From positions 1-51,413 of IMG/VR virus record IMGVR_UViG_3300012096_000002: a DNA stretch of 51,413 nucleotides; one strand, written 5' to 3'. Positions 2,372-45,095 of this stretch are shown piece by piece. Source of the stretch: a virus. Positions within the stretch are counted from its first letter, which is position 1, and each line of letters begins with the position of its first letter. A program made the translations under genes and the position numbers. The notes beneath the pieces were generated by a model that was not told the origin of the DNA, searched no databases, and saw only the letters and a program-made list of their open reading frames with translations.

Positions 2372-2579
2372 CGATGAACGCTACAATGTCGAGGGAATTG
2401 TTCACAACTCTACTTCTCCTAACTATAACGAAGGAGATATAATAGTCCTACTAAACTTTAAAACCATAACACACTATCCAGCATATTTAGTAGATCCGTT
2501 ACATATTGAAGAGCATTGGATAGTGAAAACTCAAACCAATAAATACTTTATCCTGTACAAAAGTCAGCAACAACCATGA
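2319..2579 (+). CDS. Hypothetical protein, up to 86 aa
   Basis: Small unknown protein squeezed between primase-helicase (52-base overlap) and uracil-DNA glycosylase (4-base overlap, ATGA). The N-terminal dozen residues read through the primase tail and may not be translated. The core contains YNEGDIIVLLNF and many aromatic residues, suggesting a small beta fold. No family recognised. Confidence 0.65.
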   Translation: MMPHQLTITAELKHWRLDDERYNVEGIVHNSTSPNYNEGDIIVLLNFKTITHYPAYLVDPLHIEEHWIVKTQTNKYFILYKSQQQP

Positions 2580-3241
2580 TCTATCCTTGGAAACTCAACT
2601 ACTGGCAATCCGGTGAATGGCAGGTGTGCAATGAGAGGCTTAAAGATCTGGAGAAGGCTGGGATTACATACAACCCAAAAAGGCAAGAGTTGTTTGGATC
2701 TCTACGATTGCTATCTGTTGGAGCTGTCAAGGTTTGCATTATTGGGCAAGACCCGTACCCCCAGTCCCAGTATGCCACCGGAGTTGCCTTCTCCATCCCC
2801 GACAAAACCACCAGAGAAGATTTCCCTCCTACACTTAACACGATTTTCAAAGAATATTCCTCTGATCTCAAATACCCCATACCTAGTAACGGTTCACTCC
2901 TACGATGGACAGCCCAAGGCGTCCTTCTATGGAATGCCATCCCAACTTGCACCGCTGGTAAATCATTATCTCACAACTGGGACGAATACTCCCACCTCAC
3001 CAAAGAAATCATCCAAACCCTCTCGAAAAAAGGCATCGTCTTCGTCTTCCTCGGATCTATTGCCAAAAGATATTTGGAAGAAGTAGATTTAAATAATAAT
3101 AAGGTTATTACTACCTCACATCCATCGCCTCGGGCTAATAGATTTTCAAGAACTCCATTCGAAGGATCTAGATTATTCTCCACTATCAACGATAAGTTAG
3201 TATCTTTAGGTCTAACCACTATCAACTGGAGATTGGAATAA
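2576..3241 (+). CDS. ung: Uracil-DNA glycosylase, family 1
   Basis: Removes uracil from DNA by cleaving the N-glycosidic bond. Seen: the catalytic water-activating loop GQDPYP (residues 57-62, Asp59), an FPPTL segment, an LLWN motif and the C-terminal HPSP minor-groove loop (182-185), all in family-1 order. Length 221 aa matches the family (about 220-230). Start ATG overlaps the previous stop by 4 bases, and the stop overlaps the next start. Could protect phage DNA from uracil incorporation or deamination, or act as a polymerase-associated factor; the phage role is inferred. Confidence 0.96.
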   Translation: MIYPWKLNYWQSGEWQVCNERLKDLEKAGITYNPKRQELFGSLRLLSVGAVKVCIIGQDPYPQSQYATGVAFSIPDKTTREDFPPTLNTIFKEYSSDLKYPIPSNGSLLRWTAQGVLLWNAIPTCTAGKSLSHNWDEYSHLTKEIIQTLSKKGIVFVFLGSIAKRYLEEVDLNNNKVITTSHPSPRANRFSRTPFEGSRLFSTINDKLVSLGLTTINWRLE

Positions 3242-6386: not shown

Positions 6387-6880
6387 TGGTTAAATACGGT
6401 AAGACTGAAATAGTATACATTCAGGGTAAAGTATCTTGGTTTAGAAATAAGATGCCTAATCAATGGGATAAATACTCTGTACAAATACACCCCAATCCTA
6501 AAGACTTGGAAGTCATCCGAGACTTACAAGCTAGAGGTTTAAAGAATACTATTAAGAAGGATGATGATGGATATTTCACCACTTTTTCCAGACCAGTGAG
6601 TAAACAATACCAGAACCATAAGGTGCAGACCTTTGCTCCACCTACTGTGACTGATAAAGATGGTAACATCTATGAAGGTCAGGTAGGTAATGGTAGTGAT
6701 GCTACCCTTAAACTAGAAGTCTATGAACATGCTACTCCTGCCGGTGGTAAGGCTGTAGCTGCTCGGTGGACTGCAGCTAGGATAGATAACTTAGTACCTT
6801 ATGCAACTGAATTGGATGCCTTCCCTGAACAGAAGCAAGCTATCTCTGGATTAAAGGAACAACCCGAACAGTTGTTCTAA
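6386..6880 (+). CDS. Single-stranded DNA-binding protein, T7 gp2.5-like
   Basis: Likely OB-fold protein coating ssDNA at the replication fork. Seen: an N-terminal strand-rich region (EIVYIQGKVSWF), an SxQIHP strand and a C-terminal tail ending in phenylalanine (EQPEQLF), like the gp2.5 tail that contacts polymerase and helicase, although this one is less acidic. Size (164 aa) and position next to DNA polymerase fit a phage ssDNA-binding/DUF2815-type protein. The family call rests on pattern and context. Confidence 0.75.
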   Translation: MVKYGKTEIVYIQGKVSWFRNKMPNQWDKYSVQIHPNPKDLEVIRDLQARGLKNTIKKDDDGYFTTFSRPVSKQYQNHKVQTFAPPTVTDKDGNIYEGQVGNGSDATLKLEVYEHATPAGGKAVAARWTAARIDNLVPYATELDAFPEQKQAISGLKEQPEQLF

Positions 6881-8388
6881 AGAACGAAGACCTAGCAGAT
6901 CCCATATGCAGCAGGAAACCACGTGCTAGGCTTCGGAGGAGGGCAGGAAATCTGACACCGTACTAGTTCTCGGTACAAGTTCAGAAGAGCCCTCCTCTAT
7001 ATTTAATTCTACAGCATGAACCCTCCACGCTTTGGGAAAGCTTGCTAAGGAGTAAGCAACCCCACCCTCCCACAGGACTCAGGTACCTGGCTGTCGATGA
7101 CCTTGGGTATAGCCCAAGAGGAAATGAACCAATGTGTAGCTTGATTTCAACTAAGGGAAATCAAGCGCATCCCTATCTGGAATGTAACTGCTGGGGTGAC
7201 GCCCCTCAACTTCGTTAGCAAGAGACCGTGTCCAGTAGTCAGGGGTCCTGCTTCTGAATGAATGTACGGTGAGCAAGGCAGTGAGCGAAGGTAGCGAGCA
7301 CAACCACACATGTGTCTCATAAGCACAATGGTGGTAGATAGCACACAGACGTCGCGTATGCTGCAGGCATGGTGCATGTTCTGCATGGACCTCCTTTAAG
7401 GAGGGCGCGTATGAGGGTAAAGGACTTGTCTTCACTGACTAACGATCTGAAGCGAAGTAAGGTGGAAAAGAAGTCTACCACTCCCTGTTGGTTCGATTCC
7501 AACGTCCCATGCATTGGGAACTGGCGGCAATGGTGGCGTGCAGAAAGCGGAGCGAGTTGAGGTTCGATGCCTCTAGAGCTTGGGTAGCAGATAGCTCGGT
7601 GAGTACCCACGTAGTAGATTGATAGACAACTGAGGTACGCTAACAGTGTGAAACCTGTTAGGTGGGTTCGACTCCCACCCCATGAACGTAATGTAGTAGG
7701 ATCGTGATAAAAGCGAGACCCGACTAATTGAGCATTAAGGGTATCAGATACTTCTCAACCTCTGTGACCCCACTGTTTCCACTGTTCGAGCAAGCTGTCC
7801 CATGAACTCAGCCCAGACGACCCTGTGGAGCTGGTTGCGTAGACGCAGCATCATCTGACTGTGCACTGGATACTTACACCTCCAGGCTTTACGGAGCAGT
7901 ATGTACGAACCGGAAGGCTGATGATGTGGAGCACTGGCTATTTACCAGCTGGCTCAATAACTACTGTCCTACAGTGGACAGAGATGTGATCTACAGTCCG
8001 TTATGATGGTAGAAAGCAAGTATCCCTAGGTCGGGTTCCTAGTATTGAGCTTGTGACGGCCACAATCTGTTAGAGCATCAAGCCGCAGACTACTACGACT
8101 AGGTGCAACGCTGAAGTGTATAACCAAGCATGCACTGAATGGGTAGCTAAGACGTCCCAGCTGAGTCCAATTACATGGATGATACGGGATGCAAACCCGT
8201 CTAGCAAGTCCATAGAACTTCCTATTCGATGGCAGTCCCACGACGGTAAACTGCCTCTACAAGATCTGAAGGGAGTCTGAAGTGAATATCAGGTCCTCTC
8301 AACAGAAGCCTCGACCTCCTTAAAAACAATAACAGGCAGAGGTGGGCCGGGTTCGAGTCCACCTCTGTTACGAGAAAGGAGATGTGTC
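6881..8388 (+). ncRNA. Large ORF-free, highly structured region: candidate giant non-coding RNA or decayed tRNA array
   Basis: About 1.5 kb with no plausible gene on either strand in an otherwise packed genome. Hairpins read directly include 6891-6897/6924-6930, 6936-6944/6989-6997 (9 bp, GC-rich), 7040-7046/7051-7057, 7102-7107/7113-7118, 7139-7147/7158-7166 (9 bp), 7390-7394/7400-7404, 7487-7491/7499-7503, 7581-7586/7604-7609, 7640-7646/7655-7661, 7662-7666/7674-7678, 7836-7839/7844-7847, 7964-7969/7976-7981, 8026-8030/8038-8042, 8184-8188/8196-8200, 8231-8236/8250-8255 and 8337-8345/8359-8367. Several have tRNA-like T-loops (TTCGANN). I could not close a standard 72-90 nt cloverleaf. GOLLD and ROOL RNAs are known giant phage RNAs often near tRNA genes, so that class is the leading guess. 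Exact ends unknown. Confidence 0.6.
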
Positions 8389-8682
8389 ATGAAGAAAGTT
8401 ATGCTGGTCGACCCGGATGATTTCTTCACCGGAGGTAGTCGATCTAAACGTGAAGTAATGACTGACGATTTGAAGATATACAAGAAGTGGAAGAAGTTCT
8501 TGAAAAAGGAAGAAGAAGACGCTAAGAAGAAAAAGGATGTCCCTACCAAATGGTGGGAGAAGAAGTCTGTTGCCGAGAGGACAGTTATTATTGCTATCCT
8601 CGGGCCACCATTCGGTATTCTATACGTCTATGGTTTGCTCCAGCTAGTTAAATTGATGGCTGAAACTATAGGAGTACACTGA
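8389..8682 (+). CDS. Membrane-anchored hypothetical protein, 97 aa
   Basis: ATG at 8389 with AAAGGAG 8 bases upstream. A lysine-rich cytoplasmic part (KKEEEDAKKKK near residues 45-55) is followed by one transmembrane helix (VIIAILGPPFGILYVYG) and a short C-terminal helix. First gene after the structured non-coding region, whose last hairpin (8337-8367) ends about 20 bases upstream. Function unknown. Confidence 0.8.
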   Translation: MKKVMLVDPDDFFTGGSRSKREVMTDDLKIYKKWKKFLKKEEEDAKKKKDVPTKWWEKKSVAERTVIIAILGPPFGILYVYGLLQLVKLMAETIGVH

Positions 8683-8684
8683 TA

Positions 8685-8942
8685 ATGCCTGAATGGTATG
8701 AAATGATGGATGATCTTGATGGTCCTGAACAGGAGTGTCATGCACTCGATGCACACGTAACTAATTCACACAATGGAGGCAAGGTAACTTGCTATAAATG
8801 TAATGGTTTCATCCTATATAAGGATGTAGTTTCATATCTAGATCATCAACACAGAGATGAATTTCCTAGAGTACACTTCCACAAGGAATGCTACAATCCT
8901 TACGAACATTATTATGGATTAGATAAACCCAACCGTGACTGA
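8685..8942 (+). CDS. Small putative zinc-binding protein, 85 aa
   Basis: Begins 2 bases after the preceding stop and overlaps the exonuclease gene by 8 bases. Acidic N-terminus, then a CYKC knuckle and a later HFHKEC cluster, together with HQH, that could bind one zinc ion in a LIM/treble-clef manner. No named family recognised. May partner the downstream nuclease (inference). Confidence 0.7.
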   Translation: MPEWYEMMDDLDGPEQECHALDAHVTNSHNGGKVTCYKCNGFILYKDVVSYLDHQHRDEFPRVHFHKECYNPYEHYYGLDKPNRD

Positions 8943-9795
8943 AATACGAACATTAATACAAGATATCTACCATCTGGTAGGTAAACAAGAGAACTGGCTG
9001 ACAAGTGATATCGCTACTAAATTCACATCTGAACTCACACTTAAACTCCAAGGATCCTTCAGTCCGCAAAGCAGCTCTGGATTACGTCTCTCAGGTATGG
9101 GCCCAAAGTGCCCGTGTCAGCTGTGGCACTCGGTACATACCCCACTGGATGCAGAGCCACTCCCACCCTGGGCCAGGATCAAATACACCTACGGACACAT
9201 ACTTGAAAGTCTTGTAATCGCAATGGCTAAGGCAGCCGGACATGAGGTAACAGGAGAACAAGATGCTGTATCTGTTGATGGGATCATCGGCCACAGAGAT
9301 TGTGTTATTGACGGGTACGTCGTTGACGTTAAGTCTGCTAGCAGCCGTGCTTTCCAAAAGTTCAAGGATGGTTCAATCGCATCCGATGATGGCTTTGGCT
9401 ATCTTGATCAACTTGATGGGTATCTTGTGGGGTCCACAGATGATCCACTGGTAAGATTTAAAGATAAAGGTTATCTATTAGCAATCGACAAACAATTAGG
9501 ACATATGTGTTTACATGAGCATACTTCGCGCCCGCAAAGCATTAGAGAAAGAATTCGAGATTATAGAACTATCGTCGCTCTTAATAGAGCTCCGAGCTGT
9601 ACTTGCGAAGAAGTACCCGAAGGAAAGTCCGGAAACTATCGCCTGGGCATTAGAGCAAGCTACAATGCGTTTAAGTACCAGTGTAAGCCACAGCTTCGAA
9701 CCTTCCTCTATTCAGATGGACCAAGATACCTAACTAAAGTAGTCAGGAAGCCTGATGTACCAGAAATAGATAGGCATGGAAGAATAGTTTATTGA
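8935..9795 (+). CDS. PD-(D/E)XK exonuclease, Cas4/RecB-like
   Basis: Probable DNA exonuclease for recombination or host DNA breakdown, replacing T7 gp6. Seen: helix Glu91 (GHILES), then Asp126 in VIDGY and the core DVKS (Asp131, Lys133), the PD-(D/E)XK order, followed by a GYLDQLDGYL segment. Cysteines at 59 and 61 and at 222, 224 and 250 are placed like the four iron-sulfur ligands of Cas4/AddB-type nucleases. Start is GTG at 8935, overlapping the previous gene by 8 bases. The nuclease fold is fairly sure; the metal cluster is inferred. Confidence 0.85.
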   Translation: MTEIRTLIQDIYHLVGKQENWLTSDIATKFTSELTLKLQGSFSPQSSSGLRLSGMGPKCPCQLWHSVHTPLDAEPLPPWARIKYTYGHILESLVIAMAKAAGHEVTGEQDAVSVDGIIGHRDCVIDGYVVDVKSASSRAFQKFKDGSIASDDGFGYLDQLDGYLVGSTDDPLVRFKDKGYLLAIDKQLGHMCLHEHTSRPQSIRERIRDYRTIVALNRAPSCTCEEVPEGKSGNYRLGIRASYNAFKYQCKPQLRTFLYSDGPRYLTKVVRKPDVPEIDRHGRIVY

Positions 9796-43398: not shown

Positions 43399-43934
43399 TA
43401 AAAACTTGGTGCGATATTTTGAGGGTGTAATTCATCGGCGCGCGATGACCCCCCGACCCCCTTGGGAGGGTTTTGTGCATGGTTTGTTCACGGTTCGTTC
43501 GTTGTTTGTCCGCAACAGAGGTAGCTAAATACCTAAGACTCTGATCTTGCAAATTCCTAAGAGACAAGGTTGAGTATGAATGCTAACGTAATGATTAGAT
43601 AGTGATTTCTAATGAATTATGTTAGTGTACATACGATATTCTTTAGACACTCGTCGTTAGACACAATGAGGACATAGATATGAACCAAGCGCTTTGTTCA
43701 TCATGATGGCATGATTAAAGCATCAATGCCTTGATAAGACCTTGATGTTGGTTCAAATCACGTCTTTGTGATTTGGACTGCCTTGACTTAATCACAATCA
43801 ATTGCTAATCTCTCATTGCGTCGTCAAGACGGCCCAAGGCATCGGGTAGCCGAGTCAGCGGACTTCCGTCAAACGTAGTTGCACTCAAGGCGGCAATGGT
43901 GCCAGCCAAGTGCGAAGCATGAGAGAGACAAGCT
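43399..43934 (+). other. 536-base non-coding regulatory region upstream of the 386-aa gene
   Basis: No gene supported. Contents: the element 43401-43433 shared with 3431-3461; a GC-rich palindrome TCATCG-GCGCG-CGATGA and a C/G-rich tract (about 43431-43470); GTTCGTTCGTTG repeats near 43493; an AAATCAC/GTGATTT hairpin (about 43755-43774); a sigma70-like promoter TTGACT-N17-TAATCT (43783-43811) and a roughly 115-base structured leader. Could include a replication origin or packaging site as well as the promoter. Confidence 0.6.
43783..43811 (+). promoter_or_regulatory. Sigma70-type promoter for the 386-aa gene
   Basis: TTGACT (43783-43788), 17-base spacer, TAATCT (43806-43811). Leads into an unusually long leader of about 115 bases with several inverted repeats before ATG 43935. 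Confidence 0.6.
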
Positions 43935-45095
43935 ATGAAAAACGTTCTTAATCCCAAGGCACAGCAGCCAGTCGAAGCACCTCGCGTTGATCCTCACCAA
44001 TACGAGATCGGCGCTGCAATGGAGGCCAATGCCAAGGAAGTGGCTTCTAACTCAGATTGGCTCTCGGCGACCATCAACACCATTGCCAAGGCCAAGCAAG
44101 ACTATGAGGGCGGACCATTTGCCGTCATGTTCAAGGTCATGGAGAAGATGGACGCCGATACTATCAATGCTCTGCCCGATCCGGACAGTGAGACTGGCAA
44201 CAATCCGGGCAAGTACAAAGTCCGGACGGTTGGCGGCAAGGGCAAGCCAGTCGTCAAGGAACGCAAGTATTACCACGTTCTTTCCGACTATCTGCCCGGT
44301 AACATCGTCAAGCAACAGCGTATCGACATGCTGGAATTGAGCATGAAAGACCCTGTTCAATACAACGTGTCATCGGTGTCACAAGACATCAAGGACATGG
44401 ATCGGGATCGGCGAGGCGCTGAGGTATCCAAACTTAGCGGTGAGCTGTCTACCTCAAGGTCGAATGTCCTCGCTGCATTCGAATTGTTGTTCCACATCCG
44501 GGCAGTCAATGCACTGCCGGGTGTCGAGGCCAATGTGATGTACGCATTGGACGACAAGGGACAGGAACTCAACGGCGAGGACGGTCGCGAGTGTGTGGTT
44601 GAGAATACCAAAACACCTATCATAGTCACAACCACAATCGACGGTCGCAAGGGCAAGGATACTACGCAACTCGGTATTACTTCCTTCAAGAAGCTACGCC
44701 CTGCTATCGCAATGGAGAAGGGCGGCACTTACCAAGCTCTGATCGACAGTGCACCGACGATCAAGCGTGGTACCAAAGGCGAGGAGGAACCGGGTGGTAC
44801 CAAGCCCTCGCTTATCAACACCAATGAGACACTGTTCACTCGCATGGTAGACATTCATGACTACCTTGACGTGATCACCAGCGACACCAAACAGACCGCA
44901 TACTCTGCGATCCTTGGTATGCTGAACAAGAAAGAGGGTAGCGAGGACATGCTCGTTACCTTCACCGAAGTCAGGGACTTCCTGAATACCCTGCTCTCTA
45001 AGACCTACAAGGCCGGAGAGAGATATCAGGAACTCACTATCAAGCGTGCTGAGGCTGAAGCTAACAAGGCCGAAGTCAAAAAGACCGGGACCTAA
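43935..45095 (+). CDS. Hypothetical protein, 386 aa, GC-rich
   Basis: Charged, Lys/Glu/Asp-rich, without hydrophobic segments; a KERKYYHVLSDYLPGN motif and a coiled C-terminal tail (ERYQELTIKRAEAEANKAE) stand out. No domain recognised. Higher GC and different codon use than the small neighbours, and its own promoter. Followed by an 8-bp hairpin (45109-45130). Possibly abundant early, or a structural accessory protein; unknown. Confidence 0.85.
   Translation: MKNVLNPKAQQPVEAPRVDPHQYEIGAAMEANAKEVASNSDWLSATINTIAKAKQDYEGGPFAVMFKVMEKMDADTINALPDPDSETGNNPGKYKVRTVGGKGKPVVKERKYYHVLSDYLPGNIVKQQRIDMLELSMKDPVQYNVSSVSQDIKDMDRDRRGAEVSKLSGELSTSRSNVLAAFELLFHIRAVNALPGVEANVMYALDDKGQELNGEDGRECVVENTKTPIIVTTTIDGRKGKDTTQLGITSFKKLRPAIAMEKGGTYQALIDSAPTIKRGTKGEEEPGGTKPSLINTNETLFTRMVDIHDYLDVITSDTKQTAYSAILGMLNKKEGSEDMLVTFTEVRDFLNTLLSKTYKAGERYQELTIKRAEAEANKAEVKKTGT

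Follow-up and report, generated by a model that had tools for sequence, protein, structure and literature searches.

To our knowledge, only a handful of giant ornate RNAs have been described, and their functions are open. Two of them, GOLLD and ROOL, build RNA-only cages, and the GOLLD linker sometimes contains tRNAs (PMC12286853). For another large ornate RNA, OLE of bacteria, the gene seen most often immediately downstream of ole is oapA; the membrane protein that it encodes carries a cluster of basic residues in its cytoplasmic part, binds OLE RNA and is required for its membrane localisation (PMC12265935).

The window analysed here is the whole of the virus contig record IMGVR_UViG_3300012096_000002 (IMG/VR; 51,413 bases). 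Its plus-strand replication arm encodes a primase/helicase, a family-A DNA polymerase, an SSB-like protein, a Cas4-type exonuclease and a methyltransferase-like protein, and its minus-strand arm a terminase, a head-tail adaptor, a major head protein and tail proteins. The closest polymerases from cultured phages belong to those of Roseobacter and Lentibacter and share no more than 38% identity with that of the window. The replication arm also carries a protein of the uracil-DNA glycosylase superfamily (2576-3241; Pfam PF03167, E 2e-14). The gene upstream of the region of interest, which we take to encode an SSB from its position and from the reading of an earlier note on this DNA, has homologues in relatives at 38-80% identity and no match in Pfam or PHROG. 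The stretch from its stop codon at 6880 to the ATG at 8389 holds no open reading frame longer than 63 aa on the plus strand or 97 aa on the minus strand, and 84% of short indels in the alignment of close relatives over this region would shift a reading frame; in the polymerase gene 27% do. The earlier note had seen no credible ORF on either strand for 1.5 kb, and both measures bear this out. No record in the cultured-phage collection gave a DNA match to 6881-8388. A second, smaller stretch of about 400 bp without a listed plus-strand ORF of 40 aa lies at about 43530-43935, just upstream of a 386-aa ORF.

Related contigs were gathered by searches with the SSB, exonuclease and polymerase. In 74 non-identical viral contigs (window included) the SSB-exonuclease gap measures 1.5-4.2 kb, with about 1.1-3.7 kb from the SSB end to the start of a small membrane-protein gene, whereas the gap is only about 27-270 bp in eight outgroup contigs, and 54 bp separate the corresponding genes of Roseobacter phage CRP-13; five other distant loci with a gap of about 4 kb but marginal SSB matches were left out. 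The simplest reading of these gap lengths would be an insertion into, or growth of, the SSB-exonuclease spot in one virus clade. The viruses carrying the giant RNA are bacterial viruses, mostly soil-derived; a search of genome contigs for the host returned two distant relatives only, both from metagenome-assembled genomes (Dependentiae and Altiarchaeales), in which the SSB-like frame overlaps the exonuclease frame or is separated from it by little. No ORF upstream of the membrane gene is common to the whole family, and the small ones present are confined to single clades. Such ORFs, of about 90-115 aa and conserved within the clade, occur between the SSB and the membrane gene in L068, L093 and L098 and in L075, L080 and L084, which suggests that the giant RNA region tolerates gene insertions.

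Evidence for RNA structure comes from an RNAalifold test of nine homologous contigs, all close relatives, set against 40 column shuffles that preserve conservation class and gap pattern. The consensus energy was -414.5 compared with -274.6±9.4 in the shuffles, with 124 covarying pairs compared with 36.5±5.9 (maximum 48). Covariation accompanies 29 supported helices (171 bp), in which G-U cells number 147 and A-C cells 34, and folding favours the plus over the minus strand; taken together, these two asymmetries indicate an RNA read from the plus strand. When the domains were folded separately, changes on both sides were found in 28 of 44 pairs of the 5' domain and in 29 of 51 pairs of the 3' domain. 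Nine further groups of relatives, each aligned separately, gave z from -5.6 to -14.6 and a tenth (G6: L085, L086 and L094) a weaker -4.0, in alignments that take in the small membrane gene and of which those with two or three sequences are weak tests singly. That the region at 6881-8388 holds a structured RNA is thus, on covariation, almost certain, and comparison of sequences shows no protein-coding content in it that is conserved across the family.

The earlier note's central claim, a giant phage RNA transcribed with the plus arm between the SSB and 97-aa membrane genes, is accordingly upheld by strong compensatory change at homologous phage loci, whilst several of its details need revision. 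Its picture of a hairpin-dense region stands insofar as the sequence is structured beyond chance, but most of the helices span longer distances, and have better support, than the hairpins that the note had read off the letters. The helix that it drew between 7383-7388 and 7507-7512 finds no support: 7505-7510 pairs instead with 7514-7519, with covariation. Of the full extent 6881-8388, the conserved RNA occupies the part from near 7005 to 8366, and 6881-7004 varies in length and sequence; in the relative L013 the conserved RNA begins about 8 nt past the SSB stop codon. The most conserved sequence of the region lies in the core domain (Table 1), with covariation at 7442-7448/7699-7705 and 7452-7456/7685-7689.

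Table 1. Features of the giant RNA and its flanking genes, in window coordinates.
Feature	Position	Strand	Basis or remark
SSB-like gene, 164 aa	6386-6880	+	ORF; directly 5' of RNA
Variable 5' leader with strong hairpins (6936-6944/6989-6997)	6881-7004	+	absent or different in most close relatives
Conserved body of giant structured RNA, about 1.36 kb in the window phage	7005-8366	+	covariation, 29 helices
5' three-way-junction domain: 7010-7015/7090-7096, 7033-7037/7068-7072, 7073-7078/7083-7089	7010-7096	+	all three helices covary; also folded separately (alignment A4)
Hairpin CTTGGGT-ATA-GCCCAAG	7102-7118	+	covaries in close relatives
Long-range domain, closed by 7170-7177/7290-7297 and 7187-7192/7277-7282	7170-7301	+	alignment folds
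Core domain (ATGAGGGTAAAGG ... GATAAAAGCGAGACCC), closed by 7415-7418/7718-7721 and 7442-7448/7699-7705	7411-7721	+	covariation
T-arm 1, GTTGG-TTCGATT-CCAAC	7487-7503	+	sequence pattern; alignment fold
T-arm 2, GAGG-TTCGATG-CCTC	7559-7573	+	alignment fold
Family signature: hairpin, then T-arm 3, then conserved GTAATGTAGTAGG...GATAAAAGCGAGA tail	7629-7720	+	covariance models R1, R2
T-arm 3, GTGGG-TTCGACT-CCCAC	7662-7678	+	within family signature
3' domain: 7848-7856/7919-7927, 7866-7870/7881-7885, 7929-7932/7952-7955, 7934-7938/7944-7948	7848-7955	+	alignment folds
Covarying hairpin 8102-8107/8131-8136	8102-8136	+	alignment folds
CTCCTT (8316-8321), complementary to Shine-Dalgarno AAGGAG (8376-8381) of membrane gene	8316-8381	+	complementarity, invariant
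Terminal hairpin of RNA, 11 bp, 7 covarying	8339-8365	+	alignment fold
Candidate RNA partner: gene of a 97-aa protein rich in Lys and Glu, with a single transmembrane helix at its C-terminus	8389-8682	+	ORF; AlphaFold
Cas4-type exonuclease gene	8935-9795	+	PHROG 1990, E 4e-20; 3' boundary of insertion in relatives

A scan for promoters and terminators remained at chance level and none stands out, so the RNA may be merely part of the operon transcript. This, together with a position between two cistrons, is what might be expected of a very large intercistronic cis-regulatory element controlling translation or processing of the membrane protein and the exonuclease. The 3' end of the RNA offers a possible means, as CTCCTT could mask the Shine-Dalgarno sequence of the membrane gene by a pairing that would enclose the covarying terminal hairpin. 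A comparable upstream complement occurs in seven of the 24 relatives with a Shine-Dalgarno sequence of 6 nt or more (0.8 expected), though several of the seven are close relatives, and the pairing in the window phage never varies, so that covariation cannot back it. We consider a purely regulatory role improbable, as no leader known to us needs anything near the conserved structure of over 1 kb seen here. The same stretch was considered as an anti-Shine-Dalgarno ribosome decoy (ACCTCCTTAA, 8314-8323, resembling the 16S 3' end), a less likely reading than pairing with the downstream Shine-Dalgarno sequence.

A recurrent element within the RNA consists of a hairpin followed by an arm resembling the T-arm of tRNA. 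Perfect T-arms (5 bp plus TTC[AG]ANY) number 87 in 54 of the 74 gaps, with 0.7 expected from shuffled gaps. The loop of the hairpin before T-arm 3 reads GTGAAA in the window phage and (G/T)TGCAA in many relatives. A first covariance model, of this hairpin plus T-arm 3 (window 7629-7720), was trained on the nine close relatives and also retrieves distant family members. Over 23 module matches, 91.6% of cells pair, against 59% in shuffled and 35-45% in slid controls, and all 12 module pairs change on both sides, in an alignment that is fitted to the model and whose pairing figures therefore lean towards it. A second model, R2, was trained on the 23 matches and searched against 1.0 Mb with E up to 0.5; it returned 53 matches, every one on the plus strand and within the gap between SSB and exonuclease. 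They fall in 47 of 73 family loci, and 14 outgroup loci have none. Most of the strong matches (23 of the best) are R2's own training sequences, and the strongest beyond these have E of 1e-7 to 1e-4. By this measure the T-arm module recurs in about two thirds of related loci.

The uniform orientation of the matches (53/53), alongside the excess of G-U over A-C cells in supported helices (147 to 34), points to an RNA made from one strand and bears on whether the structure might instead belong to single-stranded DNA, for example as a replication origin or recombination site. A place in the replication module, next to the genes of the exonuclease and the SSB-like protein, would suit such an element, but with both signals pointing the other way we regard it as highly improbable.

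As the module is laid out like the 3' half of a tRNA (hairpin, short linker, T-arm), an array of divergent, degenerate or split tRNA genes also has to be weighed, and the abundance of perfect T-arms (87 in 54 of 74 gaps, where 0.7 would be expected) would accord with it. A DNA pattern derived from the module, TGCAA...ATGTCGGTTCRARTCCGAC, matches mostly tRNA-Cys genes elsewhere, a preference that is unsurprising given that the pattern includes the GCA anticodon by design. Taken as a tRNA, however, the module fails: its anticodon-like loop has six bases, no acceptor strand or acceptor stem partner is seen beside the T-arms, and T-arm 1 is followed by a covarying hairpin in place of an acceptor strand. 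ARAGORN without introns finds no tRNA in the window or relatives (19 loci). A tRNA array is very unlikely indeed. With introns allowed, ARAGORN gave one hit in each of 10 of the 74 gaps, scattered and not conserved in place, which we take as noise.

Known RNA families fare no better. A cmscan with all 4227 Rfam families, OLE, introns and riboswitches included, found none at gathering score in the window or 15 relatives, and at E up to 10 the window region gave chance snoRNA and microRNA matches only. The GOLLD model (RF02032) had no match over cut-off in 49 records of the virus group, two of which gave E 0.11 and 0.24 (9.4 and 7.5 bits, where the gathering score is 150); the ROOL model (RF03087) had none in the same number of records at E up to 10, a weaker negative as control genomes gave no match either, to which the full Rfam scan adds. 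The membership of GOLLD or ROOL that the earlier note put forward therefore goes unsupported. A looser form of the idea, a protein-free giant RNA of GOLLD/ROOL type that builds a nanocage or other homo-oligomer and has the membrane gene as a mere operon neighbour, is the main rival to the reading we prefer, if a rather unlikely one. The RNA is phage-encoded, rich in hairpins and of the same size class or larger, and RNA-only cages have precedent in GOLLD and ROOL (PMC12286853). Many relatives, moreover, carry the palindrome TGCA within their (G/T)TGCAA loops, putatively self-kissing, whilst the GTGAAA loop of the window phage is not palindromic and kissing remains a candidate mechanism. Against the rival are the lack of any match over cut-off in the 49 records, the lack of a tRNA island, and the membrane gene that accompanies the RNA in nearly every relative. 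Examples of the palindromic loop, a candidate self-kissing loop for RNA dimers, are seen in L005, L012, L014, L016, L041 and L051.

That membrane gene, which the earlier note mentions but does not single out as a partner of the RNA, is the most interesting feature beyond the note's idea. A rule for its product (length 60-220 aa; 19-residue hydropathy of 1.4 or more close to the C-terminus; 40% or more charged residues ahead of it) was fixed after inspection of the ORFs and is hence descriptive. Immediately 3' of the RNA it picks out, in 64 of the 74 gaps, proteins of 70-130 aa with a stretch rich in Lys and Glu and a single transmembrane helix at the C-terminus, and on the reverse strand it picks out none in any of the 74. 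In nine of the ten gaps lacking a formal match a similar ORF can be seen by eye; the stretch examined in L053 contains none. As a matter of synteny, then, the membrane gene abuts the 3' end of the giant RNA. Aligned across clades, the proteins are so divergent that little beyond architecture shows. For the 97-aa protein of the window, AlphaFold predicts a charged helix at 22-49 and a confident helix at 61-94, with low pLDDT outside the transmembrane helix; comparison with Pfam and PDB gave nothing confident, and no relative was found in cultured phages. Its nearly constant place beside the RNA makes it somewhat more likely than not, from synteny alone, that this protein is the partner of the giant RNA.

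On the other side of the membrane gene, a median of 10 nt separates its stop from the exonuclease start. In 19 relatives this distance exceeds 150 nt, often with another ORF, which suggests that added genes tend to enter on the exonuclease side. In the window, 8685-8942 encodes an 85-aa Cys/His-rich protein, possibly a zinc finger, with similar ORFs in L040, L050 and L134 and in the same position in some distant relatives. In L041, L049, L053, L057, L064, L076 and L114, the space from the membrane gene to the exonuclease holds a 174-243-aa ORF resembling a metallophosphoesterase (ISDTHFFH and GNHD motifs).

By analogy with OLE RNA and OapA, the explanation we favour, at about even confidence, is that a giant non-coding RNA forms a membrane-tethered ribonucleoprotein with the small membrane protein early in infection. 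The plus-strand RNA would be made as part of the replication operon; the membrane protein would bind it via the charged cytoplasmic helix and hold it at the infected cell's inner membrane. The two together, a ribonucleoprotein bound to the membrane, would then be the working unit and the phage counterpart of OLE RNA and OapA. The T-arm loops may lock the tertiary fold of the RNA and perhaps also hold homo-oligomers together, and the putative Shine-Dalgarno-masking helix could, as a guess, couple the RNA to synthesis of its membrane partner. What such a particle would do is more speculative: as a tentative guess, to which we give rather less credence, it would either serve phage replication at the membrane as a scaffold or shield, or sequester a host factor. 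Alternatively, the membrane protein may belong to the operon on other grounds, for instance to anchor replication proteins.

Should the membrane-tethered ribonucleoprotein prove correct, the locus would represent a new class of giant phage RNA, with a dedicated single-pass partner and tRNA-elbow modules, OLE/OapA-like but evolved in phages, and among the largest structured non-coding RNAs of bacteriophages; we consider the case for this classification evenly balanced. RNA-membrane complexes would then exist in viruses of bacteria. The RNA is larger than the known ones, occurs in more than 70 phage contigs and shows deep covariation, and the presence of a candidate protein partner in nearly every genome makes the role of giant phage RNAs testable. 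The open literature searched, which mostly leaves subscription papers and bioRxiv preprints outside its scope, contains no description of this RNA.

Set beside known systems, the module shares with the T-arm (elbow) of tRNA and tmRNA a 5-bp stem, a 7-nt TTCRANY loop, a G-C closing pair and an anticodon-like hairpin before it, and differs in its 6-nt anticodon-like loop, in showing neither acceptor stem nor CCA end, and in sitting within a much larger fold. With GOLLD (RF02032) the RNA has in common that it is giant, ornate, non-coding and phage-encoded; it is larger, however, lies in a replication operon with a membrane-protein gene next to it, and has T-arm-like modules only where GOLLD may have tRNA genes. 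ROOL (RF03087) is likewise a large ornate RNA of phages or prophages, but the RNA here is more than twice the length of the 574-position model and has no tRNA island. OLE differs in being chromosomal, in its length of about 600 nt against about 1.36 kb, and in its Rfam model, which the phage RNA does not match; the phage protein, for its part, has one predicted transmembrane helix where OapA has four, shows no detected homology to it, and as a candidate RNA binder would be an analogue only. The arrangement itself is nonetheless shared: a large ornate non-coding RNA with a membrane protein bearing positively charged residues encoded immediately downstream, as in 64 of the 74 gaps described here.
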